Shown here piece after piece: positions 25,359 to 47,570 of a DNA stretch of 64,000 nucleotides (positions within the stretch are counted from its first letter, which is position 1; the number at the start of each line of letters is the position of its first letter). The position numbers and the translations under genes are program-made. The notes beneath the pieces are model-generated. The model was not told where the DNA came from and did not search any database. It saw nothing but the letters and a program-made list of their open reading frames with translations. Source of the DNA: Thelephora terrestris (Eukaryota; Basidiomycota; Agaricomycetes; Thelephorales; Thelephoraceae); assembly GCA_015956445.1 (NCBI GenBank), contig WIUZ02000004.1:2480001-2544000 (forward strand), read 5' to 3'.

Positions 25359-25851
25359 TGTTCTCTGGTATGAATATGTTTTAGATAGGAAGGGGTGCAA
25401 ATGCAATGTGGTCTAACCATCATCTTTTTCAGTCTGGGAAAGACTAAATAAAACAGAAGGTGAGTCTTATCATGGCCGGCTAAATTTATCACATTGAACA
25501 AAGGGTAAGATAGCTGAGGTGTGGCACCCTCAACTACATTACATTCCACCCCAGCTTGACAAGCTGATGACATGTATTTTGATATCTATCAGCCCTTATG
25601 GCACCCCCAACAACCCTCCCAGGAACTAATCATGATGACTTGAGCTTGGTTGTTCAATATAGTCAAACAGATACACCCTGTAGACTTTGGGCTTGTACTG
25701 TTGAAGACACCCTTTGAAAGGGAGGGGAATTATTCACCTTCATTTTGGAACAAACAGATCAATGTTTCTGAGGTGTTGATGCAGATGCCAGCAGGAAAAT
25801 GAATAGTGCCCTCCATCAAAGTGCTTGTTGTGGATCTTGGACAGTCATTCA
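25359..25851. other. NLR1 3' flank, homologous to the NLR2 3' flank
   Basis: Closely matches 63,301-63,775 (both include ggaaggggtgcaaatgcaa and gactaaataaaacagaagg, a likely polyadenylation area). Homology stops where the CACTA element begins. A 28-bp stretch near 25,816-25,843 is absent beside NLR2. No gene is seen. Confidence 0.75.
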
Positions 25852-25902
25852 CACTGTAGAAATGAAGTTGGTCAAATAATTTACCAATGAATTTGACCAA
25901 CA
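25852..25902. repeat. Left terminus and subterminal motifs of the CACTA element
   Basis: CACTGTAGAAATGAAG at the end, followed by TTGGTCAA (25,868-25,875) and the inverted TTGACCAA (25,893-25,900). The same motif occurs near the right terminus. Confidence 0.65.
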
Positions 25903-27056
25903 TTTGGGACCCCCTTCCTCACTCGGCACGTTGGGAATTTTTTTACCAAAAAAGGTACCGTTTCACCAACACCACGTGGCGTGCGCGGTCCAATGATCTT
26001 TCGAGGATCTTGCGGGATCTTGCAGGCTCTTGCCCAATAGAAATAATAGTAATTATTGCTGTAATTCATGCCAATCGTACGGACGGATACACAGGTCACG
26101 TATTTTGGGTCGGAGGAAGTAGAGATAACATATGAGAATGATCAAGGAGAGTAGAGCATTCGTGCCCTGTTCGTATGGAACCAGCAAATGGGATCGAAGA
26201 TCGTCCGCATCCGTGTTTGCGCGGGGTCAAGAAACTTAGGCGAACGTGGGTGAGCTAGGAAACCGAGGGATGTTCGGGACGGGATACGAACCTTTTGGTA
26301 GCAACGACGGGATAACCATCATCCACCCGGGGGGGAACTTTGGCCGCGTCGTCGTTGGTGGGGGTTGCTGCCATCGTCGCTGTTGCCGAGGCCGTCGTTG
26401 TTTTCGTCATTGTCGTCGTCGTCGGCGTAGCCATAGCCATGGCGGTCTTCATCATCACAGTTGTCGTCACTGTTGTCATCCCTGTTCATGGCGCCACTTC
26501 CTGGGATGAAGTGGATGAATTGTAGTTGCGTTGGGGGTGGAGTATGTTGAGCAGGTAGAGTATATTCTATACTACTACATGGCGTACTCTAATCCTTACC
26601 TGAGAGGGGAAGATATAGTAGTGCAAGTGGGAGAGAGAGAGAGAGAAGCGATTGGTTGATCTATAGACACATGAGGGGTATATATACTTATCTACTCTAT
26701 TAACGTCACATCTATACAGTGTGACTGATGCATGGTCCGTGCGGCGGCTTAAGGCACGCGCGTTATACCGATCGATTGGGTCACTGATGTGACACCGTCC
26801 TTTGGGTTGCTTATTCAGCGCTCTCCGGCATCGGCTCTCACACGAAGCGGTGGAGCCGGTTGACCCGTTGCCGGGCACAGACCTTCGGTTCAACAGAGTA
26901 AATTGATGAAGTGCTGGAGGTGAACTTTTGGACGAGCGGGAGGGATGTGTTGTTGGGATAGGCTGCATAGCGTGTTCCGAATTGTTGGGATCGTGAGCTC
27001 GCACGTCTGCTAGGACGACGCATGAAGTCGAGAGGACGAAGGATGAGAGGGGTTGG
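25903..27056. other. CACTA interior with an Asp/Asn-coding low-complexity tract
   Basis: Contains a GTC/CGT-rich tract at about 26,330-26,490. Read on the minus strand it encodes an Asp/Asn-rich run (NDENNDGLGNSDDG type). It may be the end of the minus-strand gene at 27,057-28,901 through further exons: a possible donor near 27,064 and acceptor near 27,020 would extend that frame. A (GA)n tract lies at 26,629-26,645. Nothing else is supported. Confidence 0.35.
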
Positions 27057-28901
27057 TCACTGACCTTGATGCCTTCTGCCGTTCGTGTTGAGGTATTGCC
27101 ATGCAGGTGGGAGGAGGCGGGAATCATATTCGGCCTGATGTTGGTTCACAGCCGCATTCGCGTTTAGTTGTTGCCCGTAAGGCCAGGGTGTGGGCGCGTT
27201 CCACATGCTCGGGTATCCGGGTAGGATACCGTGGCCTACACCCCCAGGACTGAAGGGCTGTGGAGGGGCTGTGATGGTAAATAGAATCAAAGAACAAGAA
27301 TTCAGGGAGGTTTGCAGCCTGACCTTGATTTGAAACCCTGCTCGCAGTGTCCTGTTGTCGTTGGGGATCGCGATGTTCATTTTGCATCTGCGGGTACCCG
27401 GAGATCGGGGGGACTTCCTGACATCAGTAGCATTCAACCGAAGGGGTGTAGGATTAGGTTGATGCTCACGTAGGGGAGGATTTGCCCAGTGTTGCATGCT
27501 GCTTGATGCATCAGACAAAGGGAAGTTGAGTGGATTGTACGGGAAGGGTGAGGGTTGCACGGAGTCGTCAAACGGGAGTTGGGGTGCACTAGAGGCTAGG
27601 TGGGTGGGATAGTTAGACGGCGGCGCAGGGTCCCAGTAGGGTCCTCCGTGGCTGGTGAACCCAACTGAGTCGGTTGTGGTTGATGGCCCTGGTGGTAAGA
27701 CGGGAATTCGCTCGTCCTCACCGTGGTCATGGTCGTCACTGTCGTTGCCATTACCATCATGGTTGTTGTGGTCTGGTGCCGGCGTCCGGTTTCGCTTTGA
27801 TGAACGTGCAGGGAACCGAGCGCCTCGAGGAGCGTTTGGGTTTCGCTTCGAAGAGTTTGCGGCCAGGTAACGTCGGTTCTCTGGGACCTCCCTCAGTCGT
27901 CTCCTGTACAAGTCCTTTCGCCAGCTTCCAGCAGTCCCCCTGGCTGCATCCAATACGGCCCATCGCCCATACTCGTCCATGAATGGGATTCGTGGATTGT
28001 TCCTCACCTGTTTGTTCCGAGACGTGGTTTGATAGCGGGAAGGTCACATGCTTACCTCATCCACCAACCAGTCGGAAAATCGCTTCGGGACATTGTCGAA
28101 ATCAATCCACACGCCTTCCCCACACTGTTTCATGGCGAATCGGACGTGCTCCTGGGGTAACTGGTAGTTAGTGATGGGGAGGGGATTCAACAAGCCACTG
28201 ACCCGGAATTGATTGTAAGCGCTCCTCCTCTCCTCGGTGGTGTGAAGTTCCATGGCTTTCTTCAACCCTATCTTCGAAAGATTTTTTGGCCTTGACTCGT
28301 ATCTCCTCGGGCGGGTTCGTGGTGGTTTGGCATGTTTGGTTGAATGGTGGGGCGGGCAGCGGGGTTGATGGGAGTAAGGCGGGTTCGGTGGTGGCCTGGC
28401 TTGCCGAACCGAAGGATCTGTTGGATTGGGTGAGGGTTGTGGGGGCGCCGGTCTTTGGAACTGGGGAATTGGTTCACCGAATGGGGTATTCCGGATCAGG
28501 TTTGTGGGCGCGGGTGCAACTTGTTGCAGCCAATCAGATCCACGGTCATGCGAAGTATCTGACGATGATATGGTGGGGGACGCTGACGCAGGATAACCTC
28601 GAGTGAGGTGGTGGGAAGGGGAAGGGTTGTGAGGGAGGTGACCGTACCTGCAGTCGATAGGGGTTGGACCACATTCCTTTCGGCCGCGCTTGGTGGGTGC
28701 TCCTCGTCAGCTCTGAACAAGGTCGTAGGAAATTGACAATGAGAGGGCGGTGTCTTGCACGCACCGTGCAACATTGCTAGTTCGGACCCCTCGGCTCCGT
28801 CGCCCACTGCCTCTTGCACTCTCCCGTTGAGATCCTTGGGGTGGGCCCTTGTTCCCCGTGTTGCCTTGTGTTGCTGCTGCTCGGCGGGTCGTTGGTGTCA
28901 T
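27057..28901 (-). CDS. Unrecognised protein in the CACTA element, about 529 aa, five exons
   Basis: Exons 28901-28765, 28712-28648, 28558-28056, 28007-27324 and 27257-27057 join in phase to a 529-residue product with no internal stop. I do not recognise it. The N-terminal 140 residues are Arg/Pro-rich and probably disordered. A compact central domain contains LNPLPITNYQLPQEHVRFAM, KQCGEGVWIDFDNVPKRFSD and GRWAVLDAARGTAGSWRKDL. The C-terminal half is basic (SKRNPNAPRGAR), then acidic/His-rich and Pro-rich. It is divergently placed 1.7 kb from the Tnp2 transposase, the position of an accessory TnpA-like gene, so a DNA-binding helper is one possibility; a captured host gene is another. The 3' end is uncertain. 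Confidence 0.5.
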
Positions 28902-30613
28902 GCTGGCCTTGGGGTTCTCCTACTTTCTGTGAGAGAAGATGATCGTTGGAGTGAAGCGTGGGTACAAGTGATCTGGGGACTTGGCCGCATTTTTATCTCA
29001 GCCGTGTGGTTCGATCGACGGTTTCGTGCTCCGTGGTGCTTCTGTCTTGGACACTACGGAAACCTCAATCTTCACATTTAGACCCTTGTGGGCCTCTAGG
29101 GGGATTTCCTGGTATGCTTTCTCGGTTTCTGTTAAACCCAATCAGCGCGAACGCCCGTGTCCCACAATGTGCAGTCTTCGTGCCAGCAATCGCAATCAGC
29201 GCGAACTTCGCCTGTTCTCCCACCCATGGACTTTTACCAAGGCCTACAACCTCCAGAGGTTTCCCCACTGGAGCAACATTGCGTCCAGTTTCCTTTCAAC
29301 CTGCAGTGTGGGGTACGGCTGGGTAGAGGACGACCGAAGACGACCGCCGGAAAATGGGTGTCATTTTATGTTTTATGGGTGAGGGGGCCCGAGCGCGGAG
29401 AGATAGCGGTCAACAGCGCTTTGTTTCTGACTCTGGTTGGGACAGTTGGTTTGTCGAGAACCGGGATGCTCCTCCGTTTGTGGAGGAACCCCGACTCGAC
29501 CCGTGGGGGCAGTTTGCAAAAGGTGACTAACACCCTTGACTCCATCTCATTTCCTCTAAACATTCGCTTAACCCGTCCGCTCCAGCACGTCCATGAACAA
29601 CCCACATTCGGCAGGTGGTGGCACTGGCGGCGGGGATACCGGTGGAGGGAAGAGATGTTGAAATCATAACAAACAGCATCAACCGCCCAACAACTCCCAT
29701 GAAGTTGCTTCATCAGCCGAAAAATGGAAAAACGAGGACGCAGTGGGGGGACTGGAAGCAGCAGGATGACCCGAACCCCAACAAGTTTGTGTTCCGTTCA
29801 TCCGCTTTGCTCGAGGCATCTTCTGAAGCCGTAAGAATTTTAAGCTGGACACGGCGCGAAACGAATCTATCGTTGAAGCTAATTAAATAACACTCAAGCG
29901 TCGAACTCAGCGCTCGAGATCACGGTCCGTGTCACTCATGAACTCCTTCCACTCTCGGCGGAGCTCTCATGGAGGACGGTCGTGGTCACGGTCGCCATCT
30001 CTAAAGCGGTTACAACATAGTATCGGACCTTCAAGGCACGATTCGGGTCCCATCAACAAGTGTCAGGATTGAAAGCAAACCCGGTTTGTTGACAATCAAC
30101 AGAATCACGACAGAGGACGTGTTCGGCAGAGGAGTCCGTCTCCTGCGTATTCCCCTTCATCGAGAAGTGTTAGTTCTGCCTCAAGTCAAAGCTCCGGGGC
30201 TGGGGAACAACCGCGGACGTTGCATCGTCTTCTGACGGCAACTAGCGTTCGTGACATTGTCATTACGTTGTCAATGTTGATGTCCAAAACTGCTCCCCCA
30301 CAGGACCACTCCCCGAAGAGCGGGTGTCCGGTTCGGCCTCACCCTTGAAGACTTGGAGCGAGTGCGATGGAGAGAATCAAGGAGGGCTGTTAGCCTGCCA
30401 AAGACAGATAAATGCTGCTGCGGAGAACCAATGGATGGCTTTTGGGTCAACTTGCTTGCTCCCAAAGCTCATTGCCTTTACATACCGTTGTATCGAGCTC
30501 ATTTAATGTTGACTCGGTGACGCGAGTCATCAAGTGAAGTTGCACGTGAGAAACCTCGTTAGGAACCTTCCTCTACCAACAACCACTTCGCTGCCTGCTC
30601 GCTGACCACAAAA
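28902..30613. other. CACTA interior with possible coding remnants
   Basis: No intact gene. On the plus strand 29,157-29,340 reads Gln/Pro-rich, and around 29,900-30,290 a frame with stops encodes Arg/Ser-rich sequence (RSRSRSVSLMNSF, RQRSPSPAYSPSSRSVSS), which suggests an old disordered-protein gene. The immediate upstream region of the Tnp2 start (30,500-30,613) shows no clear TATA box. Confidence 0.3.
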
Positions 30614-33600
30614 ATGCCGCGTAAAGTCCTCTGCGAATGTTGTGGCGAGTTGGTCACTCCGTTTGTGGCAAAAAAACATAGGGAAGCTAAGGACCAAGAG
30701 CAATATCTTGAGTCTCTCGGCCGTGGTCCTGTGTACGCCGCAGATCCAATCCCCCCCATTACGGCGGAGAGCATCTTTGGACCTCCTTCACCCCCCGGCG
30801 TACCCGCCGATTTTGGTGGTGATATGAATGTCGACGAAGACACTTTACCTACTGAGCCATTCCCACCTTCACTAACCACTGCCCCTGACCTCCACCCCCC
30901 CTCACGTCACCGACCGGTTCTCGATGACGACTTTGAACCCAACGACAACTCAAACAGTAGCCTGGGTCCACCAGAATCATATGATGAAGACCTTGAGAGG
31001 TCGGCTCGAGAGGAGGAGGAGCGACAGGCTGATGAAAGCTCTGGACAATTTTTGTCAGAGGAGCATCGCAATCTCGAGGAAATCGAATATGGTGAGCTGC
31101 TAGTGGTGAAGAATTATACAAAGAGGTGTTCACTGCATTATACAGAGGGCAACCTTCATGAATATGACATTGCGGTCTGCAAGGCTTTTGCCTGGTTTAT
31201 TCGATCCGGTGTTTCCAAGCGGATGTTTTCAGCGATCCCGCAGGGACTCTCTGGCTTTGTCAACAAAGATCTACCCTCACCCTATGTCCTACGTGCTCGT
31301 GCGAAAGAACTTGCGGGAGTCGAACCAGTGCGATATGACTGCTGCATAAATTCCCACATCTGCTTCACTGGACGCTACAGCTCCTTGGACAAATGCCCAC
31401 ACTGCAATGAGCCACGATTCAGTGGACACGATTCACGTGGAAAACCCCGCCCTCGACGGCAATTCCTCTACATCCCAATCATCCCACAGTTACGTGCCTT
31501 CGTCGAGAGCGTTCATATGGCCAAGTTGATGCGATACCGGAGCACACGGGCACACACTCCTGGTGTCTTCTCTGACATCTTCGATGGCGAATACTACCAA
31601 CAACTGCGGTCCTCACCAATTGAAGTCCACGGCAAATCGGTTGATCCACCCGCCAACTACTTTGAGGACGACCGGGACATCGCACTTGGATTATCGACCG
31701 ATGGTTATGGAATCTTCTCCTGTGGTCAGGCAACTGCTTGGCCCCTCATTGTCTCCGTTTACAACCTCCCTCCTGAACTTCGTGTCCACATCAAGCACAT
31801 CCTAGCGCTTGGTGTTATTCCTGGCCCCAACAAACCAGCAGAGATAGACTCATTCCTTACCCCCTTCCATGAGGAACTCTCCCAACTTGCCAAGGGTGTG
31901 GATGCCTATGATGCCCAATACAGAGACATGGTCCTCTTCCGTGCTTTCCTTATCATCCTTTTTGGCGATTTTCCGGCAGTTGCCATGCTGATGAATATGA
32001 AAGGTGTCAATGGCATCTCACCCTGTAGGAACTGCAAAATTGTGGCAATCCCCATGCCCAGCGACACCAATCGAACCCACTATATTCCCCTCACCACAGA
32101 CCTTACAAGCCTTGGCCGGAACCATGTTGAGCTTATGGCTGCTGCTAGACAGGTTGATGAGGCAGAGACTGTTACAGCTGCGAAGAAGATAGCCAAGGAG
32201 ACCGGCATCAAAGGAACCCCCCTCTTGTCTACACTTGACTCTCTGTCCTTCCCTCAATCGTTCCCTCTTGATTTCATGCACATTGTCTGGGAGAATGTTA
32301 TCAAGACTCTTGTTGGCCTCTGGACTGGCGATTACAAGAAGATCAATGAAGGAAAGGAGTGTTACCAGATCAGTGCCAGTGCATGGAAAGCCATTGGTGC
32401 TGATGGAGCAGCTTCTGGATCAACTATTCCCTCAGCATATTCTCCACGGATCCCTGATATCTCAAAGAAGGGCTCCTACCTCTCAGCTGACATGTGGTCA
32501 TTCTGGGCCCTGTACATTGCCCCAGTCCTCCTGCGAAACCAGTTTGAGAAGCCTGAATACTTCACCCACTTTATCAAACTAGTCCGCCTTCTCCACATCT
32601 GTTTGCAATTTGAGATCTCTGCATCTGAGATTGAAGAACTCCAGAAAGGCTTTAGGGAATGGGTTGAGGAATATAAAAGGTAAGAACCCCCTGAGTTCAT
32701 CCTGAGAGCGATGCTAATAGAAAGCAGGATTTACTACCAGGATGATCCCAGTCGTCTCCCAGTCTGCACTCTTCCAATCCATAGCCTCCTCCACATCACA
32801 GACTGTATCAAGGGCTGGGGACCAGTTTGGTGTTATTGGGCATTCCCTATGGAGCGGTTCTGTGGCTACCTGAAGCATGGTGGAATAACCGGCAAGCGCT
32901 ATCCCTACAGCAACCTTGACAGGCATGTCCTGGACTGGGCTACTCTCTGGCACATTGGAAGCATCTATAACATCTATGATGAACTGGAATTCAAACCACC
33001 AGTGGTTCGGCATCAGAGGTTCATTGGTTGTGGGTATCATCATATTCCTGTCACTGCATATGTGCTGACTATTACTCTGGATAGATGAGACCTGTGAACT
33101 TGTGGGCAAATGCAAATTGTCACAGTCTCTCTATAAACAGGGGGGCACAGTGTTCATCCCAGCCATGGACAGGGCTATCAAAGAGTGGTTCTCAAGGCTC
33201 AGTCTCCCATCAGCTGCAATGCCTGAATGCCTGAGAGCTGCCAGTCTCCAGGAGTGGAAAAAGGTCAAGAGGATTGACTCAGAAGCTGGGGACATCATGT
33301 GTGCTGGTGCTCATTGTAGTGGAAGGGATTCAAGAGACAGTGTATATATCAGGGTAGGTCTCCACATGTGACTCTCCACTTGTCCCTTCCTCACATCTCC
33401 TCAGTTTCAGGTGCCTGGCACAAATGGCCAAACAGTGACCCACTATGGGAAACTGCAGCACATCCTCACCATCACTTTGCCTGACAGCAGTACAGACCAT
33501 CAACCCTTGGGGCCCACTGACTCAATTTTTGCATTGATCCACAGATGTGATCTAAAGCAAGATGATCCCCAGCTGGCTGGCCTTGATATCCACTTTTTTT

Positions 33601-33756
33601 TCCAAAGAGAGGGAATCATTTGATGTCACTGACATCACAGGGGTCCAGTGCCTTGTTGGGCGTGTAAAGGCAGGGGGAAACTCCTGGGCAATCATAGATC
33701 GGAGTGGAAAGTTGGCCCGTGCGGTTTTTGAAGAGCTAGGTGATGAAGAGCACTAG
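30614..33756 (+). pseudogene. Tnp2-type (Plavaka, CACTA superfamily) transposase with one C-terminal frameshift
   Basis: Exons 30614-32679, 32728-33026, 33085-33353 and 33405-33756 are in phase. The protein starts with a zinc-finger-like segment (CECCGELVTPFVAKKH), then an acidic linker and the Tnp2 core: YDCCINSHICFTGRYSSLDKC with CPHCNEPRF, GLSTDGYGIF containing a predicted catalytic Asp, LILFGDFPAV-type segment, GISPCRNCKI, LDFMHIVWENVIKTL, and YWAFPMERFCGYLK in exon 2. The C-terminal domain ends in CLVGRVKAGGNSWAIIDRSG. An eight-T run (33,594-33,601) puts the last 50 or so codons out of frame; seven T would restore the family's usual LDIHFFSK sequence, so this is a one-base frameshift or a sequencing error. 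Otherwise the gene is open over about 900 codons. Confidence 0.88.
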
Positions 33757-34023
33757 CCAGTTAGCTAGATAAGTAACCTGAAGGGTATGTTTGATATGGG
33801 ACTTTCTCAAATCTATTGCAATGTTCAATGTTCCAATTACTCCAATTACGGTCACAATAGAGGAGATTATGGTCGAGGGGTTGGGCATATTACATGTTTT
33901 ATTTTTACAGCAAGGATAACAGCCTGAAACATTAGAGCCCGTGCAGCCTTCAGATGAAATAATGATCTGATAATGCTCCAGTTGTATTGTACGTGGTCTC
34001 CATTGTTATACATTGTTTGATAT
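33757..34023. other. 3' region of the Tnp2 gene
   Basis: AT-rich non-coding sequence after the transposase; nothing further seen. Confidence 0.4.
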
Positions 34024-34322
34024 TGAACCCCAATAGCTTTTTTTTGTGCTTTGGGGGAGAAACCACATGCCCTGAGTTGATTCCCAAATTTATAGACCTT
34101 AGCAATAAGGGGATAAGTCCACAAGAGCATGGGTCTGCCATGTTCTCAGTCACCAGCCATGTCACATGACATAATTAAATATGGCACCCTGATAGCTTTT
34201 TTTTGTATTTTAGGAGAGAAACCACATGCCCTGAGTTGATTCCCAAGTTTTGGGACCTTAGCAATAAGGGGATAAGCCCACAAGAGCATGGGTCTCGGCC
34301 ACCATCCATGTCACATGACATA
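34024..34322. repeat. Two tandem copies of a roughly 140-bp repeat
   Basis: 34,024-34,172 and 34,185-34,322 share aatagc/gatagc + T-run + gggagagaaaccacatgccctgagttgattccca, gaccttagcaataaggggata and a common end catgtcacatgacata. They lie 3' of the Tnp2 gene and could be subterminal repeats of a smaller element. Non-coding. Confidence 0.75.
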
Positions 34323-35455
34323 TAAAAATCGGAGTGTTATTGTCACAAACACGTGACATGTTGGGCAAGATCAGACAAATAATTCAAGACATTGGTCTTA
34401 TTCGCAGTCGTAGTAGTAATACAAAGAGAACTAGTGAAAGAATTAAACAAGGAGGAAAGGATCAATCTTACGCAGTCCTGATCTATGGGACAACGATGCA
34501 CAAAATGGAAAGGATTATATACGGACTGAGGACAGTACGTTGTAGTGCCTCCAGTTCTGGGGATGTGGATTCTGAGGTTTTCTGTCCTCAGTCCTCATTC
34601 CTCCTCTTCGCTTTTCCTCCCCTTCGCAACCTTCGCAACCTCCGGAACATCCTCCTCTTCGGAACTTCTTCTTCTTCGCCAGAGCTTCCTATTCACCAGA
34701 GCTTCCTCTTTGTGAACTTCCTCTTCGCCAGAGCTTCCTCTCCTTCGCCGGAGCTTCCTCTTCCCCAGAAAACTTCCCCCTTTGCTTAGTTCCCCCTTTA
34801 TGATGACTTTTCCCTTTCATGACAACTTTCCCCTTTTCTCCTCTTCCCCTATGACTTCACCATTGCATCATAGGTCCCTATTTCGCAGTTTTCCTCCTTT
34901 CTTCTCTGGAACCTTCTCAGAGCAGACCCTAGTATATATATCCTGTACTAGCTACTCTGGAGATCATTGCGCTCCATCCTATTGAAGTCCAGTCAGCCAT
35001 GTTCCCCTCCTCCTAGTCTGAAGCTTTGCTCTAGTCCCCTCGTTGTCCCCAGTGTCTTCTTGCTTTCCTCAGTGTCTTCCCCTAGTGTTCTCTGCTCCCC
35101 TCGTCGAATCTTCCCTTCGGAACCCCTCGGAACTCTTTCGGAACTCTTGCGATCTCTCTGCTTTTCTTGCTTTGTCTCTAGCTCTCTTCTGGTATCTCCA
35201 CCTTTGTGCTTTCTTCGCAACTGTTCCCCAGTCGCTGCTTGGAGTTCCTTGACACTGTACAACCTAGGACCCACCTTCACAGGAACTCTCTGGGCCTTGA
35301 TCCTCTGCCACCACGGAGGTCCCCTAGAAGAACCCCTGTTCAACGTGTAGTCCCGAGATACCAGATCCACCCAGCAGTCCCAGCATCCCAAAACATTGTG
35401 CTCCAAGCCATCGAACATATTCCTCCTCACTGAATCTAGCCCTTCACGAACTAGA
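34323..35455. other. CT-rich LTR-like fossil region
   Basis: A pyrimidine-rich stretch built from variants of gagcttcctcttcgcc (34,590-34,780), followed by a TATATATA box-like sequence (34,930) and further CT-rich leader-like sequence. This resembles the control region of an old LTR retroelement, but no paired LTR ends could be fixed. Open frames here are low complexity. Confidence 0.3.
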
Positions 35456-36205: not shown

Positions 36206-36249
36206 GGACTAAATACGTCCAGATCGATGGGGCACCCAAACGGGTAAAG

Positions 36250-37060: not shown

Positions 37061-37412
37061 CAGTATGCACTATGCTTAACGACTCAAAGTCCAATACGTG
37101 GAACGTGCTACTAGTCAAGATACCCCAGAAGACCCGAGGTATAATACGTGAACATGTACCGGCGGACCTTTGTATGAAGATCCCCCCTACCTGGCCCTCC
37201 GTTGCCCCTGGACGACTAGTAGATATTCAGGCTACCGACAACAAGGGATGTATTAATAAGTGTCGCGCGCTGACCTCTCGCAGAAGTCAACCGACTTATT
37301 AATCTGACCCTTGGATTGGACTTATGAAAACCATTATGCTTTACGACTCATGGATCACGCGCAATAAACAAGAAAGAGGATTCATTGGAAGCCACCAGTA
37401 CAAAAGAGTTAT
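37061..37412. other. Spacer, no gene seen
   Basis: About 350 bp between the LTR-like segment and the coiled-coil gene; nothing recognisable. Confidence 0.4.
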
Positions 37413-38717
37413 CTAATCAATATCTCTTCGAATCCTTTGTACTACTTCCAATGCCGATCTCACCAACTCCTCGTTCAACCAGTTCTGCTCCCGGATCTCG
37501 TTCGGGTCCACGTCCGACAAATCATCGTAATCTGGAAGCTCCGTATCAGAGTTTGGTTCACTATCGGGAACGAACTCAGCGTATGGATCATACTCCAGAG
37601 CAGGCCATTGACGGCGACTACCCCAAGGAGTAGAAACGAACTCAGGACAAGGAGTGTCCCTACGGACGACTCCTACGTTCTGATAGAATTCGTCGCTCCT
37701 GATTTCAATGACCTCATCATCGATGGGAACCAACCTGTTCTCATGACGGACCAATAAACGAGCGGGCGGCGACTCAGCCCGATTAGGGATGATCGGTGAC
37801 CCGGCCCGATGCGGAACCTCCAACTCCTCTTCTTCGATCTGGACCTCCGGCTCGTTACACCTTCTCTGGAGATCCCGGACTTCTCCGGTCAACTCGGAGA
37901 CACGACGAGTAAGGCGAACCTAACAGGAACAGGGTTAGAAGATGACAACTATCTTCGATCCCAGTCCCAGTACCTTATCGTCTTCCAATTCCCCGGTCTT
38001 TGAAACGAGACTCCGGACCAAGTCCTTTAAAGTGATCACCTCTCCCTAAAGGAAATGTTAGGTTAGAGATGTCCAATATCTCCTGACCCCACATTTACCT
38101 TCAACCTGTCGATCGCCATACCATGTTGCTCTTGCTCATCTTCGATCTTCAAGATGCCCTCGTGACATCCAAGGAACTCCTTCTCCAACTTCTCGATCTC
38201 TTCGCGACGACCATCAACTCGCTCATTAACATGAGCAATCTCATCCATCAACATGGACCCAACGTTACCCGTATGGATAACGCTGGCCTCCAACACGGAG
38301 TTGAAGGTCTCATTAGTTTCCGTGACGAACTTGACACCCCTGTTAAGGAGTTCGGTTGCATAGGGGTTCGTCTCGATATGCGCCAACTTGCGCCGAGACA
38401 CCCTACGAGAAGCCTGGATAAAATCCCTAAAACCTAAAGCGGAACGTCAGTAGACACGCCAAATATGTCAACCGGCATCCCGAACCTAAGTCGGTGAAAC
38501 CCTCATTAGGGTCGGCGGTGGCGGTCCGGTCCATGACGTTTCCCAGAGTGGGATAAGGGCGGGAAGCATCCCGACGAGCATGAGAGAAGCGGTCAATGTT
38601 AAAGTTGTTCTCCTGAACAGGAGAATAGGAAGAAGAACGGCGGGTGGGAACACGAGTAGAGGCACGAGGCATGTTGGCTATGAGTAACAAAGGGAGGTTT
38701 GTTGGAAGACCAGTCAT
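37413..38717 (-). CDS. Unrecognised coiled-coil protein, 381 aa, four exons
   Basis: Exons 38717-38486, 38433-38099, 38045-37974 and 37919-37413 join in phase to 381 codons (366 if the inner ATG at 38,672 is used). The N-terminus is Arg/Ser-rich (MPRASTRVPTRRSSS). Residues from about 80 to 190 form heptad-type coiled coils (VNERVDGRREEIEKLEKEF and KDLVRSLVSKTGELEDDK). A C-terminal acidic/Pro region contains EVQIEEEELEVPHRAGSP and ends with NEELVRSALEVVQRIRRDID. The splice signals are good except for a weaker GTTCGG donor in exon 1. Product unknown. It sits between LTR-like fossils, so it may be cargo of a retroelement-derived unit or a small captured gene. Confidence 0.5.
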
Positions 38718-39863
38718 CCAACCCCCTTTGGTTATATACCAAATGCCACGCCCCTTCTACGACTCAGGAGTTGAGTCATCATTTCTATTGTTTACTGCGC
38801 ATGACCCACATGACATCATATGCCCCTATTTCTTAGTCATATGCTCCCCTTTTGCCATTGGCTGTTAGTCAGTCATTACCTTGCTTGCAAGGTTTCCCTG
38901 ACCCCCCTAAATTATAAGCGCGTGTTGTCTGGCTATATGAACATTTTGACGGTTCACATGTTGAGATAGTAGAATCGGCACTGGCCCTGGCAAATCAATA
39001 ATCCCAGCGGCCGCTACTCTGCCTTCAATCAACGCCGGTCCCGTTGGTGTCTGATATCAATTCCCTTATGAATCTCACTGGTTGAGACCTTGAGGTCCTG
39101 AGAGCGTGAATTTGGGTAGCTGGCTCACACTGAGTTTGCGTAGTCTTGTCACCATGCCATACCCCGGATGTTGTGTTGCGTGTGGCGCCTTTCCAATGTG
39201 CGGTTGCTGAGCTCGTCGCCGGTTGAGCGCAACGGGTCCAATATGAGCCGTCTCCGGAGTTTGCTCCTGGAGTTGTATTTACACCACCATCAGATAATCA
39301 TACTTGTCCATGTACACATGCAGATGATATTTGTGAAAATATATAGGAATACACGTACTCCTATTGACAAGCAAGGTTTATGTCGACATCAAGTCGGCAT
39401 TTTTCTAGTACCCACATTCCTTCCGAACATTCCCAGGCTACGTCATGCTTTGTAACTGCTTTGTAATGCTCTCAAATTGCTATTGGCCACCACACTTTCG
39501 TTTATCAGCTGATAATTTGTAGCATTAGTCACCACGTAACGCACAGACCATGCAGTGCTGCGCATGGACCATGTTTGTCTGTGTTTGTATCTTTAGGGTA
39601 GTTACATGTCACTGTCACGTCACAAATCTAAGTAGTATATATACTCAGAGTAGTTTAGCCTGTACTCCTTAGATTTGTTATCATCAGACTCTCCGTGACC
39701 TCTACTGCTGTGTGCTTAGAGCAAGAGTGTTTGAAGACCCTTGTCTCCTTCTTTCTCCCCCTCTCCAATCTAGTCTGTGAAGAGACTTCTGATATCCCTG
39801 GGTTTTCAACAGGGTTATAACTGTGTGTTTAACCCCTGAGTGTGATAGGTTTGGATAGCAAGA
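38718..39863. mobile_element. Second LTR-like fossil segment
   Basis: Non-coding. It includes TTGGTGTCTGATATC (about 39,043), similar to the primer-binding-like site of the first LTR-like segment, and a promoter-like part with ACGCACAGACCATG (39,538), TATATATACTC (about 39,636) and a CT-rich tract (about 39,740-39,775). Boundaries could not be set and no internal coding region was found. Old and probably partial. Confidence 0.3.
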
Positions 39864-40325
39864 GTGCTATTGAACTGTAGAGGTCGCGTCGGCCTGACAG
39901 ACACCAGAGTCACTACTCCTCCCTTCCTATTAGGAGCTGATCATCAATTCCTTTGGAAATCTGATCTCACTGAAAGTGTGCTAGCCACCATTTATTTCAG
40001 TATCAGTCTGGCCTTATATTTCCCTACTCCTCGTATTCACCTCACCACCAACGTTCACACTCATTGCCCTGCAATTATCGTCCTCTGGTGGGACATACCA
40101 ACTGAACTCCCTTTTGCTATTATAGATTACTTGACTAGTTTCGAACGACTCAACGACCAAGACTTCGAACCTTTCATTCAGCACCTGGTTGAATTTTGCA
40201 GCGACTACAACTCCCCCATTCACCCATATCAATTCGAGTCGCCACTCGCTCTTGATATTCCCCCTCGTCTCTACTCCAGGAACCCCGTCTTTCAAACCCC
40301 GACCCGACACACCCTATCCCGCTAA
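39864..40325 (+). CDS. Short unrecognised open frame
   Basis: 153 codons without a stop, containing WWDIPTELPFAIIDYLTSFE and FEPFIQHLVEFCSDYNSP. Amino-acid use looks protein-like in the middle, less so at the N-terminus (which overlaps LTR-like sequence), so the real start may be an inner ATG or an upstream splice. No family recognised. Confidence 0.3.
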   Translation: MLLNCRGRVGLTDTRVTTPPFLLGADHQFLWKSDLTESVLATIYFSISLALYFPTPRIHLTTNVHTHCPAIIVLWWDIPTELPFAIIDYLTSFERLNDQDFEPFIQHLVEFCSDYNSPIHPYQFESPLALDIPPRLYSRNPVFQTPTRHTLSR

Positions 40326-40658
40326 TCCTCTAGCACCCCACAAACAGTAAGCAGGCCTTCAACCCTGACAGTTATCAGATCAGATCATGTGACGACAAAC
40401 TACGATTTTAGAGTCACTCCTTTCAGTATTCTTGTGAATTTCTGACCACTCTCGTCACCCCAAGATTTCGGACGCTCCCATGAGCATTTGATTCAAGAAG
40501 AAAAGCCGGCTTGACTCGAGGAGTCCAAAAGCAAATGCCACTAAAATAACGCTGACTCGATCGGCAGGAGGAAGTGAATGTGGAATTTCCGCAGGTGGCT
40601 GTGTCAAAGGAATATAAATCGCGCCTGTGGCTGCAACCCGAATGGAAAACCCATCACC

Positions 40659-42671
40659 ATGTTCTTCAGCACCCCCAGACCGACAAATCCACGAAAGAAA
40701 GACGGCAATACGCCAATGACTAGGAAGCGTCGGAGAGAACTTGGGGTGGAGCTTGGAGCAGGCAACGACTCTGCCGGTGTTGATTCCGCAGAGGTGGAGA
40801 CCCCGATCCATGCAGGGAAACGGGCGAAAAATCCTCAACGGTGGCACCGAAACAGACTCCGCTCGCTGAGTTGAAGCTGGAAGGCCGCCGTAACTCGATG
40901 GAATCTCCTCCGCAGAATGCTCGGAGGGGCCTGCGATCTTCCTATGTCGGGCTCCCTACGCCGATTACAAGCTCACGCGGTGTATCTAGGCTGAGAGCAA
41001 ACGACCCTTCAAAGGTTTTAGTGAGGACGACCCCGGAGCCTCCAGAACCTGAACCCATCGGCATTTCTTCCTCGCCGTTATTGCCGCTAACCGATCTCCA
41101 GGATTCATCTCCCCGCTCTCAGGCTCCTGCTCAGAACTCATCTCCCATCTTCAATGTTCCCGCGCTTCCTCTTCATACTCCACGCCATCAGCGTGTAGGG
41201 GATACAAAGTCTGGTTCGAGCCCACCGCACCACCCTGCAATGGCTGTAGATTCCGAAGAAGAGCTGGTCCCCATGTCTCAGTCACAGGATTTGAAACCAT
41301 TCATCATCTCCCCTCCACGTCCAGGAGGGTCTTCCCTTCTCAAAGACACCACACCAAAGTCACTGCGACAATTGCAAGGTTACATCAAGCGAGCCATGCA
41401 GCCGTTGCCCTCCATCTTAGCTACAATGCAAGCCGGAGGCTATACTGGAACGCAGGAGAGCGATGTCGTTGCTACCTCTCAAATGGAGGAAACCGAGTTG
41501 CGGATACTCCGTTCTGCTCAGGTTGGACCGTCGAGGGCTCTGGCTTCCAGCTCACCCCCGAACAAACGAAACAAAGTTTCAAGTCATCACGAACCTCCGT
41601 CGTCAGTACGGAGTGGCGTTTTGAGAACTCCCACGAAGATCACCGGTCTCCCTCGCGATTGGAAGGTGCATGTCATGAGGTGAGCATCCATCCTACAAAC
41701 TCAAGGCCCTGGGTAACGAGAGAACCCACAGTCCCGTTACTGGGTTTTTATCCCCCAAGAGGTACACTCCCACTCGTCGCAGTGAAGGTGGTCCTTCCAC
41801 GAGCTCCCTACCTCCCTCTTTGATTCCCCCATCGACTGAGCCGTATGAGTCCGGTCGCGACGACACCGCCCTCGACTTTGTTCAATACCAAACTACACCC
41901 ATGAAGCGCAGATCATTGATGGATTCTCCGACGAAGGAAATAAAGTTGTTTGAGAGCCAGGTGACGCATAGCCCGACGTGGAGCCAACCGAGGTCTTTTG
42001 AGAGATGGAGACTTAGAGATCTTCTCGATAGCCAGCGTGCTTTCGGTGACGGGAAGGCAGGTTTGGAGGCCGAGGCCGAAGGTCGAGAACCAGGCGAGGG
42101 GTTGGCAACAAATGGAGATGAGTTGGAGGAGTCGGAGAGAGCGGCGATGATGGCTAGCTCTATGACCGAAGCAGACAGCCAGGACTTGATCGAGTGGTTT
42201 GCGAGGGTCCGCCCAGAGCTCAAGTTTGTAGGGAGGGCGCCACAGTCCAAGTCTAGCAACTCCTCACTCGGGTCGAACAAATCGGGCCCCGACTCGGCCA
42301 AGGACGATGCGAACGGGAATGGATCTGGGAGCCGAGTCGACCAGGTCGATACCGTCGTCGTCGACGACACGCCTCCCCCGAGCCAGGATTTCAAGAAGCC
42401 GGACAACGCGGATCCCATCACGAACCGGATTGAGAACGTGGGGAAGGTGTCGCCTGTCGAGACTTCTTCGAGCAGCCTCACGGAACCAGACTCTCAGAGC
42501 GGGGGTTCGAGGAAGACGCAAGACCAGGAGGACAGTCAGGGCGGTATAGGTGACTCCACCTTGGTTTTCTCGCAGCCCACGCTGGACCCGTTGATGGCGT
42601 TTTTGGATATGTTTGGGGGAGCGAGTAGCGTGGCTCGGGATTCGCAGTCGGTTATTGACATATCCGACTAG
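40659..42671 (+). CDS. Unrecognised nuclear-type disordered protein, possible frameshift near the 5' end
   Basis: An N-terminal frame from the ATG at 40,659 encodes a basic segment (RPTNPRKKDG, MTRKRRRELG) typical of nuclear signals. From about 40,820 the coding signal moves to another frame (VAPKQTPLAELKLEG) that stays open to 41,683. An intron (about 41,681-41,760) joins to YTPTRRSEGGPSTSS, and the frame then runs to the stop at 42,671. The product is Ser/Pro/Glu-rich with a helical stretch (LRQLQGYIKRAMQPLPSIL) and a C-terminal MAFLDMFGGASS segment. No good intron explains the first frame change, so there is a one-base frameshift or the true start is the ATG at about 40,898. Function unknown; nuclear location inferred from the basic motifs. 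Confidence 0.45.
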
Positions 42672-42893
42672 AGAGGGTTTGTTGCTTTGACTTTGCATTT
42701 TGCTTTCGATGCGTTCATCTTCGGACTTGCTGATCTTACAGTAGTCGCTTAGTGTGTGTAAACCAGAGTTGCCGGTATGCCACGTATCCAGGCGATTTGA
42801 AGTCGTTACACGGCAGTGAGGAAATTAATACACGGAGGGTAGGACGAACATTTCGAAAGCATACTAATAGTACAAAACCACATGCCAATAAAA
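42672..42893. other. Short spacer
   Basis: No gene seen. Confidence 0.4.
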
Positions 42894-43504
42894 TTACCTA
42901 TTTTCTTCCATAATGGGTTCCTCCGGAAGAGGGACAACAGCATTCGAGGGACCCGCGACCGCAGCCTCGGGGACCGGACTGGTGCCGTTATCGTTCGCAG
43001 GCTCATCAAACTCGCAGCGCCCACCCATCTCGAGATCGGCATCATCAACGCCCCCACCGTAGCACATGTCCACCGTTGCTTGCGCCACCGAATAAACGAT
43101 ACCCTCAACCATCGACATCGGGAGGCGCCAAGTGAAGACGAGCTCGTTGACCAGCTCGTTCACGCGTCCCATGATACGACGATCAGGGATCGACAGAGGC
43201 TTCCCGCAGCCGGTGTAGGTCAAAACATTGAGACCGGACCTGACGGCGTTGTGAATCGCTTCTGGGCCGCGAGATTCCCTCATTTTGAGTGCTCGGGAAT
43301 TCCACTGCTGAGTAAAGTAACGGGAACGTCCGAAAAAGGCTCAACCCAGCGCTCGAGCGTAACGTCAGATATGACACGAGAGTGCATGCCAGACCGGAGA
43401 TAACACTCTGGCGTCTCCCTGAATCCACGCGTTAACCCCCCACTCTCGCAGTGCGCCGTTCTACCAGAGAGCGTTTCTTCGAGAGGGAGTATACACGCAA
43501 ACAT
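42894..43504 (-). pseudogene. Unrecognised protein remnant
   Basis: Two overlapping minus-strand frames: 43,504-43,280 (LEETLSGRTAHCESGGLTRG, ERWVEPFSDVPVTLL) and 43,283-42,894 (LNVLTYTGCGKPLSIPD, VNELVNELVFTWRLPMSMVE, ending with an acidic/Pro tail). The two appear to continue each other across a frame change near 43,281, which suggests a broken gene. No family recognised. Confidence 0.35.
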
Positions 43505-44320: not shown

Positions 44321-46756
44321 TCAGCTGTTGCTAGGTTGGGCGTTGTTCCGTTTCCTTTTTTTTCCTGTTTCAATTGGCGCACCGTTTCTGCGCTTCGTTC
44401 CCCTGCCTACAGGACCTTGAAGCTGCGCCAGCGCCCTTCTTGCAAATTCTGCTTCTTCGTTCTCTGCGTACCTCAGGGTGGTCCGCCACTTCAACTCGGT
44501 GAGGCGGACAAACTCTTTCCTTAGATCTTCTGATCGCCTTTTGCTGATCTGTTTGACATCGAAATCTCGCAAGACTGCCAAGCCGGCGAGGCTCGTCGCT
44601 CTGGACACCATTACGTATGGAGGTTCCGTCCCAGAGCATCCTGCGAGGTCTACCACCACACGCTCCAAGGTCTTTCCTTGAGCCTTATGCGCGGTTATGG
44701 AAAACCCGGGTTCAATTGGAACCTGTCTCCGTTTGATAGTGCATCGTCTACCTGACGCGTTGTGTTCAAATTTCAGCTCGGTGACATCCGGCAAGACAGG
44801 AAAGTGGTGTTTTGGCAATTCCGGCATCTCTGTGTCGTCAGAACCTGGTATCTCAACAACGCACGACTGCAAGTACCGCCGTCCTTGAATGTCCGTCGTG
44901 TATCTCAATTTCCTCAAAATACCATGACTCCCATTCACAACACCTGCTGCAACATTGAAGTTTTGGTTTACCGCCACGGGCATTCCTATCACTAGGGGAA
45001 TACGCCTCAGTCTATGTTTGGTTTGCCCTGAGTGCAGCTCCTCCAACTTTTCAATCAGCGCGGGGTCTGAGATTACGTTCCTCTGGTACATGTCCACAGC
45101 GTGGTACCAATGCAACTGTTTGCCTGTTTGTTGCGCAAAGGCCTCAGTTGCCCGCCGGTTTATTGCATCCCTTGTTGTGTTGCTCGATACTATAACAGGT
45201 GCATTACACCAACTCTCATCATTGGGGGGAGTTTGACTCTGCAAACAGCGGGTTTGCAGCCGTTGATAGTCACTTTCATGACACACTCCGTCACGAAGCC
45301 TTTGCAAAAGGCCCACGAACACTTCGTTTTCAGTCCCATTTTGTCGCATGCTCTCGTGCAGCATCACAACGGTTTGGAAGGACAACCACAACAATCGTCC
45401 TAAAATCTTTCCTTGACCTCGGTTGGTAGACCCAGAGCCCAATAAAGAGGTGTTGATGTCTTTGTACAGGCGAGTGTCCCCTATCGGTGGCAGCTGTGCG
45501 AAATCTCCGGCTAGGATTATGTTAACACCGCCAAAGGCAGCTGTGTTTCCCTTCGCGCTCGTCAGTGCACGACTAACCTTGTGCAACATGTCACATCCCA
45601 ACATCGACACCTCATCAATGAACAGGTAATCAACACCGTCCCACATCTCAGCCAGGTCCCTTTTTGTCTTTGCGCTCATCTCCCGACCTGATTCGTTCAG
45701 CTGCAAAAGCGCGTGTAACGTCGCCCCTCCTATGTTTGTTGCTGCGACGCCGGTGTAGGCAGCCAGCCTGAAACGTCGTGTCTGCTTCTGGGCGGCGAAG
45801 AAATCACGCAAAGAGTTCACAACCCTCGACTTTCCGGTTCCCCCAGGTCCACCGAGGTACATCAAAAGCTGGTCGGCTCGTGCATGGAGTGTATGCTCTG
45901 CCACAATCTTGAAAGCGCGGTGCTGTTCTCGATTAAGCGTCCATTTCTCGGCCACCCCTTGCATCATGTCCGCAGAAGAAGCGCCAGCGTTGCTGTCCAG
46001 CAAGCTTTCACCCTCGTTCACAAGGGGAATATTGTCAGGGGAAATCTCCAAAGCAGCGGCACTGCTGATTGTCGTGGAAGCAACAGGCTCCTCTCCGTCC
46101 AAATGCTTGGTCCCCCTTTTCCAGGACGCTTTTCTTCGCTCATAGGCATCGCGCCATTCGTCTTCTAACCTCTCGTGGTCTGCCTCCAATACATCCTCTG
46201 CCACGCTGCTGTCGCTCGTCGGCATCACAGGTCGCAATGAAGAAAAAAAACCTGCTTTGGTGAGCACCTCCAGGCAATCCCTGGCTTCATTTGCTGCTTC
46301 TTCAAGCTTTCGGGAACACCCTCGATCCATTTCGTCGAGGTGATCTAACACTCCGGACATGTCAATGTCTTCAACATCGTTGCCAGGCAGAGGTTTCGGC
46401 CCACTGCGCGGGTGAGAGCCTCCTTGTTTTTCGCGGGCTCGCGTCTGCATGTGCTCGTTTCTGCTGTCGCGACACTCATGCAATACCTGCATATTGTTCA
46501 GGACGTTTAAGTGCTCTGGGCTAACAGTATTCATGAAGCCTTGGAAGTCCACCTCCCACGAAGACACGTGGCAACGAAGGTCGGCCACGTCCCGCCACGG
46601 TTTGAAGAGCATAAGCATCAAACGGCAATATCGGGGATAAATGTCAGGTTGATCACGGCGTGGCATTGCCGGGCCTATGGGCACGGGTACCACGGGTTCG
46701 TCTCGCATTCTGAGATGCTTAATGTTATACTCTTTATGACCGGCTAAGAAGAACAA
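44321..46756 (-). CDS. Helitron-type Pif1 helicase, 811 codons, Rep region missing
   Basis: A single uninterrupted frame. The N-terminal part matches the linker before the helicase in fungal Helitrons (VVPVPIGPAMPRRDQPD, YCRLMLMLFKPWRD, NNMQVLHECRDSRNEH). Helicase motifs follow: Walker A LGGPGGTGKSRVV, AYTGVAATNIGGATLH, Walker B YLFIDEVSML, motif III LAGDFAQLPPIGD, and C-terminal ITAHKAQGKTLERVVVDLAG and PYVMVSRATSLAGL. Pif1-type helicases unwind DNA 5' to 3' and in Helitrons act with a Rep (HUH) nuclease during rolling-circle transposition. The Rep domain and its HxH motif are absent upstream, where similarity ends near 46,770-46,830, so this is a 5'-truncated Helitron protein or a captured fragment inside the CACTA block. 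Confidence 0.85.
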   Translation of the reverse strand: MFFLAGHKEYNIKHLRMRDEPVVPVPIGPAMPRRDQPDIYPRYCRLMLMLFKPWRDVADLRCHVSSWEVDFQGFMNTVSPEHLNVLNNMQVLHECRDSRNEHMQTRAREKQGGSHPRSGPKPLPGNDVEDIDMSGVLDHLDEMDRGCSRKLEEAANEARDCLEVLTKAGFFSSLRPVMPTSDSSVAEDVLEADHERLEDEWRDAYERRKASWKRGTKHLDGEEPVASTTISSAAALEISPDNIPLVNEGESLLDSNAGASSADMMQGVAEKWTLNREQHRAFKIVAEHTLHARADQLLMYLGGPGGTGKSRVVNSLRDFFAAQKQTRRFRLAAYTGVAATNIGGATLHALLQLNESGREMSAKTKRDLAEMWDGVDYLFIDEVSMLGCDMLHKVSRALTSAKGNTAAFGGVNIILAGDFAQLPPIGDTRLYKDINTSLLGSGSTNRGQGKILGRLLWLSFQTVVMLHESMRQNGTENEVFVGLLQRLRDGVCHESDYQRLQTRCLQSQTPPNDESWCNAPVIVSSNTTRDAINRRATEAFAQQTGKQLHWYHAVDMYQRNVISDPALIEKLEELHSGQTKHRLRRIPLVIGMPVAVNQNFNVAAGVVNGSHGILRKLRYTTDIQGRRYLQSCVVEIPGSDDTEMPELPKHHFPVLPDVTELKFEHNASGRRCTIKRRQVPIEPGFSITAHKAQGKTLERVVVDLAGCSGTEPPYVMVSRATSLAGLAVLRDFDVKQISKRRSEDLRKEFVRLTELKWRTTLRYAENEEAEFARRALAQLQGPVGRGTKRRNGAPIETGKKRKRNNAQPSNS

Positions 46757-47273
46757 TCTCTCTTTTCTCTTACGTCCACGGGGATATGCCCACTGGACTC
46801 GAGTTCGCAGTTTACTTTCACATACTCGGAATAATAGTGCTCGGGGAACCTACGGAACGCTTCAGCCAGGAAGAATCTGAGGAAGCGCCGGAGGCATTCG
46901 GAGTCAGTCAAGTTGAAGAGGACTTGCCGGAAGAAGAGGAGGAGAGCAGCGAGGAGGAGCCCAAAACCGAGGAAAATTTCTTGTAGGCTGATATTGGATA
47001 CGTATTGTAAAAGTAGTGATGTTATGTTTGTATACGTACACTCTGCAAACACGAAAGGGTGAGGAATGACATTGGCAGCAAGCGCACCTCTCTAGTGGAG
47101 TCGGGCGAGCAGTAAAAGTTAGCCGTGAGGCGGGGAAGAAACTACGCTCGAAAAGGGCCGTGGGAAATAACCCCTAATCTTCCAGGGGATTTGGGTCGTT
47201 GGGCCAAGGACGGGAGAATTAAAACATCAAGACCCTCTCCCTTTCGGTCGTGGGGATAACAAATTCTTCAGAA
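46757..47273. other. Spacer between the Helitron fragment and the CACTA right end
   Basis: The first 70 bases continue the Helitron frame (RGRKRKERLFF). Beyond that no gene is supported; the open frames here are Glu/Leu-rich low complexity. Confidence 0.4.
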
Positions 47274-47338
47274 TTGACCAACCGTTGGTTGTTTGACCAA
47301 CGGTTGGTAAAAAATTGACTAAAGTCGTTCCCACAGTG
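47274..47338. repeat. Right terminus and palindromic subterminal motifs of the CACTA element
   Basis: Reverse-complement end CACTGTGGGAACGACTTTAG. Inside it are two near-palindromes, TTGACCAACCGTTGG (47,274-47,288) and TTGACCAACGGTTGG (47,293-47,307), which together form a larger hairpin. Confidence 0.65.
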
Positions 47339-47341
47339 TCA

Positions 47342-47570
47342 GAATGGTCGCTCTTCCCTAACACACACAGCAAGGTGGAAACTGATGGCAACACAACTGA
47401 AGATTGAGGCATTTGTACAGAAAACCCATTCCAGAGGAAAGTGGGCTCCATCCACCCCACCTTCATCCAAAGGAAATGTGCATGTTCGCACTTGGAAACT
47501 GCATACAACACATTTGAATTTATCACCCAAAGTACATCTTATCAATAAGAAAAAAGTTGCAATGGTTCAA
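47342..47570. other. Displaced NLR 3' flank
   Basis: Matches 63,776-63,990 closely (both contain caaggtgg, ggcatttgtacagaaaa, accatccaccccaccttc, ccaaagtacatcttatcaata). It is the continuation of the NLR1 3' flank on the other side of the CACTA element. Confidence 0.8.

Follow-up and report, generated by a model that had tools for sequence, protein, structure and literature searches.

A 21,487-bp insertion beside a NACHT-WD40 gene, most likely a single EnSpm/CACTA element, with a Tnp2-type transposase gene and a PIF1-family helicase gene inside

The window analysed here, a stretch of 64,000 bp from Thelephora terrestris, carries a duplicated pair of NACHT-WD40 genes. In one copy the last long ORF is followed, some 490 bp downstream, by an insertion site; the corresponding site beside the second copy, NLR2, is unoccupied. 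The features are as follows.

25,849-25,851, no strand: left target-site duplication TCA, read in the sequence
25,852-47,338, no strand: CACTA/EnSpm element of 21,487 bp, delimited by its ends, the duplication and the empty-site alignment
25,852-25,902, plus: left terminal inverted repeat with a CACTGT core, extending imperfectly for about 50 bp
25,867-25,970, no strand: left subterminal repeats, three GTTGGTCAAA/TTTGACCAAC-like copies (at most one mismatch)
30,614-33,756, plus: Tnp2-type transposase gene (Transposase_21, PF02992; Pfam E = 7.6e-20), several exons by inspection
35,459-36,208, minus: coding-like stretch in which a stop divides a single frame into ORFs of 136 and 113 codons
37,416-38,446, minus: gene-like unit with coding-like stretches of 168 codons (codon score 19.8) and 127 codons (24.7)
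40,784-42,668, plus: coding-like stretch made up of two ORFs that overlap (299 and 330 codons)
42,897-43,340, minus: coding-like stretch of 148 codons (p = 0.000), on the helicase strand and downstream of that gene
44,321-46,849, minus: PIF1-family helicase, 842 codons from stop to stop (Pfam PIF1, E = 2.9e-23)
47,273-47,312, no strand: right subterminal repeats, three GTTGGTCAAA/TTTGACCAAC-like copies (at most one mismatch)
47,289-47,338, minus: right terminal inverted repeat, imperfect
47,339-47,341, no strand: right target-site duplication TCA, read in the sequence
63,773-63,775, no strand: lone TCA at the paralogous unoccupied site, from the flank alignment

The existence of the insertion is confirmed. 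The left CACTGT begins at 25,852, the right ACAGTG finishes at 47,338, and TCA flanks both, as the first-pass annotation had noted; the single TCA that it had placed in the NLR2 flank is likewise found in the flank alignment. Its interval for the insertion, 25,844-47,346, was too wide by eight flanking bases on each side. The left flank is identical to that of NLR2 at 2,082 of 2,273 aligned bases (23,535-25,816, gaps excluded), and the right flank at 191 of 220 bases up to the end of the window. About 28 nt, which had escaped the earlier annotation, are found in the left flank only and are absent from the NLR2 flank; they end 8-10 nt to the left of the insertion site, their placement being ambiguous by 2 nt. 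The left junction therefore depends on a short block of 8 nt, GTCATTCA versus GTTATTCA, which match at seven of eight positions (for a single given 8-mer, about 0.0004 by chance), and, given this indel, is not perfectly clean.

A CACTGT...ACAGTG pair with a 3-bp duplication is by itself poor support for an element, and four such pairs, the outer one included, occur in the window. The outer pair is convincing because of its terminal similarity and its subterminal repeats. The terminal 25 bases of the two ends are identical at 18 positions, and among 942 CACT[AG]...[TC]AGTG pairs inside (span at least 150 bp) the outer pair alone unites this joint best match with a 3-bp duplication. Two further pairs also reach 18/25, both without a duplication, and the next-best duplication-bearing CACTA-like pair has a terminal identity of 13/25. 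Six of the eight copies of the GTTGGTCAAA-like motif in the window (at most one mismatch; the motif was chosen post hoc, once the ends had been inspected) lie within 130 bp of the element ends, three at each end. By local alignment, the similarity of the 80-bp ends is only moderately unusual, its score being reached by 3 of 5,000 mononucleotide shuffles and by 3 of 5,000 random pairs from the window.

The Tnp2 gene, whose putative exon borders come from frames read by inspection, occupies just about 3.1 kb, and its Transposase_21 match scores 71.5 bits against a cut-off of 28.6. Motif I (31,679-31,747, with STDGYGIF inside) is followed by GDFPA at 31,964, CRNC at 32,024, HSLLH at 32,780 and MER at 32,849. 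This order agrees with the rule given for EnSpm/CACTA in PMC12730594, a D-D-E triad whose second D and E enclose C(2)C and H(3-4)H; the catalytic residues are putative, being placed by motif rather than by alignment or structure. The frame appears to be disrupted near 33,600, ahead of the last coding stretch and close to the C terminus, and the codon-position signal of an inner exon of 98 codons is insignificant (p = 0.166). Against a codon table from the NLR ORFs, a small training set, the Tnp2 ORF scores +43 bits. A sub-cut-off DUF4218 match in the second Tnp2 ORF (E = 0.14) was set aside. No match was found in PDB at E ≤ 1, and no relative was confirmed in viral contigs or genome contigs; these collections are viral and prokaryote, so missing relatives say little on fungi.

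The PIF1-family helicase is the only gene besides Tnp2 in the element with a curated Pfam match. Its ORF is uninterrupted, contains the motifs from Walker A to VSRAT, and has a codon-position signal both as a whole and over its first 286 codons. The first Met stands at 46,706-46,708, 47 codons past the opening of the frame, and the 5' end of the ORF is 489 bp from the right terminus. Among solved chains, the best match is one named PIF1 (E = 1.2e-24), with the Helitron Helraiser lower (E = 1.2e-12). The codon usage fits the NLR-ORF table badly (-126 bits, with the same small training set), which is in line with a different origin. For the N-terminal 286 aa, three PDB matches were found at E ≤ 10, the best at 0.45; this region may resemble Helitron RepHel proteins. 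A six-frame Pfam scan of the element (E ≤ 0.1) contains no Helitron_like_N (Rep) domain. No relative of the helicase or of its 110-aa N-terminal part was confirmed in viral contigs, nor of the latter in genome contigs of the viral and prokaryote collections, and tblastn in phages gave distant helicase matches only (419 records, each with less than 60% identity at its best place).

Helitrons lack terminal inverted repeats, make no target duplication, and end in CTRR with a hairpin at the 3' side. The element as a whole differs from them, with terminal inverted repeats and a target duplication and no Rep domain in that scan. For a Helitron nested inside it, a scan of the minus strand, made without a control, gave one weak candidate for a CTRR end with hairpin, at 42,344.

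Four further stretches are coding-like. The best supported without an accepted Pfam match, and the sole one to pass both coding tests, is 37,416-38,446 (minus): its codon scores are above 16.4, the highest value among 20 simulated sequences, its codon-position signals have p values of 0.000 and 0.002 (500 permutations), and its Pfam matches are all below cut-off. An ORF antisense to it, 38,087-38,434, also scores 21.4. The stretch at 35,459-36,208 (minus) has codon-position signals (p = 0.004 and 0.000), codon scores inside the simulated range (15.3 and 11.0) and no Pfam match. In 40,784-42,668 (plus), the ORF of 330 codons exceeds the longest, of 314 codons, in 200 simulated sequences; codon-position signals are seen (p = 0.012 and 0.000), the codon scores (15.3 and 13.4) are inside the simulated range, and there is no Pfam match. 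The stretch at 42,897-43,340 is outside the best 40 codon scores and has no Pfam match. AlphaFold models made without alignments, that of 42,897-43,340 included, are too poor for use (mean pLDDT 50.0 and 34.4). A TnpA-like second DNA-binding protein was sought; coding-like ORFs are present, none with an accepted Pfam match.

Lacking a codon-position signal, the following ORFs were rejected as genes: 26,570-27,145, 27,060-28,043, 28,047-28,706 and 34,996-35,883 on the minus strand, and 29,136-29,666, 39,849-40,322 (p = 0.088), 41,053-41,820 and 42,843-43,400 (p = 0.062) on the plus strand. Such a signal is present in 28,499-28,897 (minus, p = 0.010), 46,747-47,091 (minus, p = 0.006) and 46,723-46,983 (plus, p = 0.000), which are not claimed as genes. 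Sub-cut-off Pfam matches to PRT_C (E = 0.0035, 42,809-43,159, minus) and DUF7500 (E = 0.0051, 34,996-35,883, minus), and weaker ones, were set aside. Of the intact unrecognised genes in the earlier description, one is recognisable, as the PIF1 helicase, and among the longest remaining ORFs several have no codon-position signal.

Taken together, the element is most likely a single EnSpm/CACTA insertion, and this assignment is well supported by a Tnp2/Transposase_21 gene, CAC...GTG ends, a 3-bp duplication and subterminal repeats at both ends. The fifth terminal base is G, not A. We estimate a probability of roughly three in four that it is one cut-and-paste transposon of 21,487 bp whose inner genes move jointly and whose helicase was secondarily acquired; the single transposon is supported by the matched ends, the 3-bp duplication, the unoccupied paralogous site and the Tnp2 gene inside. 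Tnp2 would bind and cut the CACTGT ends, aided by the subterminal GTTGGTCAAA repeats, so that all DNA between them, the PIF1-type helicase and the other genes included, would move jointly. The helicase would most likely be a gene, or part of one, acquired secondarily rather than core transposition machinery, its source perhaps a Helitron without its Rep domain. Judged on one copy, the element may be a cargo-carrying form, or the extra content may be captured debris.

The strongest competitor, a serious possibility if not the favoured one, is that a shorter CACTA element, with Tnp2 alone as its own gene, grew through later insertions nested in it or through captured fragments. The small share of the element taken by Tnp2 and the several long ORFs without codon-position signal agree with this, as does the G+C content, which shifts between 0.43 and 0.57 (1-kb windows) and could reflect nested insertions. 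On the other hand, none of the 942 pairs is a convincing nested CACTA-like element with good terminal identity and a duplication, given the 13/25 of the next-best one. Generic terminal-repeat scans, run without a shuffled control, gave 7 and 22 low-specificity candidates, and none of those listed (20 of the 22 in the second scan) was convincing by eye. The six-frame Pfam scan (E ≤ 0.1) contains no reverse transcriptase or other retrotransposon domain, and no transposon domain besides Transposase_21 and PIF1. Self-comparison at E ≤ 1 gives a single repeat pair of about 150 bp, which is tandem; hence there is no LTR-like pair. No Rfam match was found.

Rather unlikely, in our analysis, is a helicase-encoding CACTA lineage in which the PIF1 gene would be a working part, aiding excision, gap repair or replication of a long element. 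The 842 stop-free codons with their motifs and codon-position signal, the position of the gene between the element ends, and the precedents of KolobokH (PMC9587614) and of AcademH and KolobokH (PMC10799480) are consistent with such a role. However, a single copy was examined, the true start is uncertain with the first Met so far into the frame, and an ORF whose 5' end lies so near the right terminus, without a Rep domain, is what a truncated capture predicts. Both of these alternatives agree with the preferred reading on the insertion itself. It is very improbable that the two ends come from different elements, as a macrotransposon or a chance pairing, for although the fourfold occurrence of such end pairs in the window and the only moderately unusual end alignment would allow it, terminal and subterminal sequence is common to both ends and identical TCA on either side faces one TCA at the empty site. 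A macrotransposon formed from two closely related elements is compatible with the shared ends and the TCA evidence.

If the helicase and the other genes travel along with the single transposon that we prefer, CACTA elements would have their own equivalent of the DDE transposons that bear a helicase, and the question of how a cut-and-paste element of more than 20 kb moves could naturally be asked here; if they do not, the insertion is a CACTA element that is large but ordinary and contains debris. Its position beside one of two duplicated NACHT-WD40 genes suggests that such elements reshape immune-receptor-like clusters. That there is a giant fungal CACTA lineage which has its own PIF1-family helicase and moves it jointly with several other genes, as a parallel to the Kolobok and Academ elements that bear helicases, is an unlikely proposition at present.

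The known systems were compared through excerpts of the sources cited. Plavaka elements have TGT..ACA ends with a 2-bp duplication (PlavakaA) or CATCA..TGATG ends (PlavakaB) (PMC12730594), and are excluded by CACTGT..ACAGTG with TCA. The TET-positive fungal EnSpm and Plavaka elements are CMC-type transposons that bear an accessory gene, and those of the EnSpm group have CAC..GTG ends and 3-bp duplications (PMC12730594); an accessory gene is in common, theirs being TET/JBP and that found here a helicase. A TET-positive EnSpm was rejected, as no TET/JBP match occurs in the six-frame Pfam scan (E ≤ 0.1), in which an intron-split gene could be missed. No CACTA element with a PIF1 helicase inside it is described in the titles and abstract openings of the open-licence literature matches listed, nor in the excerpts of PMC12411881 and PMC8504770.

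The first-pass annotation called the element very large for CACTA. Large it is; unprecedented it is not, and size by itself is not new (PMC2613891, PMC6431247). Tgmt* of soybean is a CACTA element of 20.5 kb (PMC2613891) and resembles ours in its length, its short and imperfect terminal repeats, the 3-bp duplication, the subterminal repeats and the Tnp2 transposase; it differs in having one large gene, 14.6 kb long, that combines transposase and DNA-binding functions, and a helicase is unmentioned in the excerpted description. The EnSpm elements of the red alga Chondrus crispus (16-20 kb, 4-5 ORFs; PMC6431247) are likewise enlarged with several ORFs, in a different host lineage. KolobokH, reported as fungi-only, is also a DDE transposon encoding a helicase, and Kolobok-1_CCri of a red alga has a RecQ helicase on the complementary strand (PMC9587614); AcademH and KolobokH helicases are named in PMC10799480. 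The helicase of KolobokH is, however, RecQ and its transposase Kolobok, whereas here they are PIF1 and Tnp2 (Transposase_21), which excludes KolobokH. Fungal Helitrons share the PIF1-type helicase, and truncated PIF1 helicases are mentioned for them (PMC4289320); in contrast, the element beside the NACHT-WD40 gene has no Rep and combines its helicase with inverted repeats and a target duplication.

The element lying downstream of NLR1, one of the two duplicated NACHT-WD40 genes, is a real, single and unusually large CACTA insertion, assigned to EnSpm/CACTA. The element and its coding features are located as follows (window coordinates).

25,852-47,338: CACTA/EnSpm element, 21,487 bp, starting with CACTGT and finishing with ACAGTG
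30,614 (start) to near 33,756 (end of last coding stretch), plus strand: Tnp2 transposase gene, from Pfam and motifs
35,459-36,208, minus strand: candidate coding stretch, from codon-position signal
37,416-38,446, minus strand: candidate coding unit, from codon-position signal and codon score
40,784-42,668, plus strand: candidate coding stretch, from codon-position signal
42,897-43,340, minus strand: candidate coding stretch, from codon-position signal
44,321-46,849, minus strand: helicase ORF, 842 codons stop to stop

TCA is read in the sequence on either side of the element, and in the flank of NLR2, the second NACHT-WD40 gene, the alignment places one TCA at 63,773-63,775. The insertion with its TCA duplication and the unoccupied site, both claimed in the first-pass annotation, are thus confirmed, with a difference of about 28 nt near the left junction. 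Identity to the NLR2 flank, computed on aligned bases with gaps left out, is 91.6% on the left (2,082 of 2,273 bases, 23,535 to 25,816); the right side, followed to the window end, has 86.8% (191 of 220). The ~28 nt (25,816-25,843) are present only on the left side, 8-10 nt from the site and with a placement ambiguous by 2 nt, so it is the short block GTCATTCA/GTTATTCA that places the exact left junction. A deletion in NLR2 could account for this difference, as could an older insertion or a footprint.

The two closely related NACHT (NPHP3_N)-WD40 genes (21,913-25,355 and 59,834-63,297; the domain scan of the latter covered its first half) each consist of two long ORFs, and the break between these, probably an intron, falls at a similar position in both genes. 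Stretches at 11,987-16,728 and 53,113-57,678 have 66-84% identity to DNA that lies either upstream of NLR1 (20,221-21,052) or to the right of the element (48,497-51,976), a likeness which suggests more partial paralogs in the cluster.

CACTGT...ACAGTG ends with a 3-bp duplication would not be convincing by themselves, because they occur four times in the window. The element contains 942 CACT[AG]...[TC]AGTG pairs, of which the outermost has 18 of 25 terminal bases identical together with the duplication; two others also reach 18, without duplication, and the next best pair with duplication has 13. The motif GTTGGTCAAA (≤ 1 mismatch) has eight copies in the 64 kb, seven of them in the element and six within 130 bp of its ends (7/61 with two mismatches allowed), counts which are descriptive because the motif was picked after the ends were inspected. 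In a less biased test, two 130-bp stretches were drawn at random from the window 20,000 times, and in 16 draws they had as many 8-mers in common as the two ends; the 20,000 include a few skipped overlapping draws, and duplications of the window itself can yield such pairs. The local alignment of the 80-bp ends was equalled 3 times in 5,000 both by shuffled sequences and by random pairs.

When the entire element was scanned against Pfam in six frames (E ≤ 0.1), Transposase_21 was found on the plus strand, PIF1 and related AAA models on the minus strand, and no other domain; in particular, there was no match to a Rep domain. In scans of 20 single ORFs the further matches all fell below curated cut-offs (PRT_C, E = 0.0035; DUF7500, E = 0.0051; others weaker). 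Tnp2 has Transposase_21 motif I in general form, followed in order by GDFPA, CRNC, HSLLH and MER; in PMC1636069, which gives the motif I rule, three of four fungal sequences deviate from it. The last coding stretch differs in frame from the preceding one, and no intron between the two was seen on the reading frames. The frame change may be a true disruption, or it may come from an assembly error or an overlooked intron, and the autonomy of this copy is therefore uncertain. Just past the gene lies a tandem pair of ~150-nt repeats (34,020-34,322; 83% identity).

The helicase has Walker A (GGPGGTGKS), DEVSM, GDFAQLPP, TAHKAQGKT and VSRAT, and its codon-position signal is seen alike in the entire ORF and in the first 286 codons. 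Among solved structures, a chain with the name ATP-dependent DNA helicase PIF1 matches it best (E = 1.2e-24); the Helitron Helraiser scores more weakly (E = 1.2e-12). Stretches like PRRD and FKPWR, found upstream of the helicase domain, may be typical of fungal Helitron proteins. The codon usage of the helicase fits the NLR-ORF table poorly (-126 bits, versus +43 for the Tnp2 ORF). Antisense to its start, a plus-strand stretch (46,723-46,983), acidic by reading of the sequence, passes both coding tests (score 18.8; p = 0.000).

The codon-position test covered 24 stretches, with host and known genes as references and p values uncorrected for multiple tests; the codon score had the NLR, Tnp2 and helicase ORFs as its training set, which makes it circular for these. 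An unknown gene at 37,416-38,446 is fairly well supported and the other three are tentative, because among the four only this unit clearly exceeds 20 simulated sequences in codon score (simulated maximum 16.4); the others are not above simulations or lie outside the best 40 rows. An ORF antisense to this unit also scores high. Across 200 sequences simulated with the same dinucleotide composition, the longest ORF is ≤ 314 codons, against 842, 706, 330 and 328 observed; the 328-codon ORF is without codon signal, so that length by itself is no proof of a gene.

Among the literature matches listed, no description of a PIF1 helicase within a CACTA element was found. The helicase makes this a CACTA variant worth checking; its content is known from one copy, and it may be the cargo-carrying form suggested in the first-pass annotation. 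A RecQ helicase is encoded by KolobokH (PMC9587614), and rust-fungus EnSpm elements combine CAC..GTG ends and 3-bp duplications with an accessory TET/JBP gene (PMC12730594). Large sizes are on record in soybean (a 20.5-kb CACTA; PMC2613891) and in red algae, whose EnSpm elements of 16-20 kb hold 4-5 ORFs (PMC6431247). In Chenopodium, a CACTA element of 16.5 kb includes a satellite array, and captured gene fragments are described in CACTA elements (PMC8978399).
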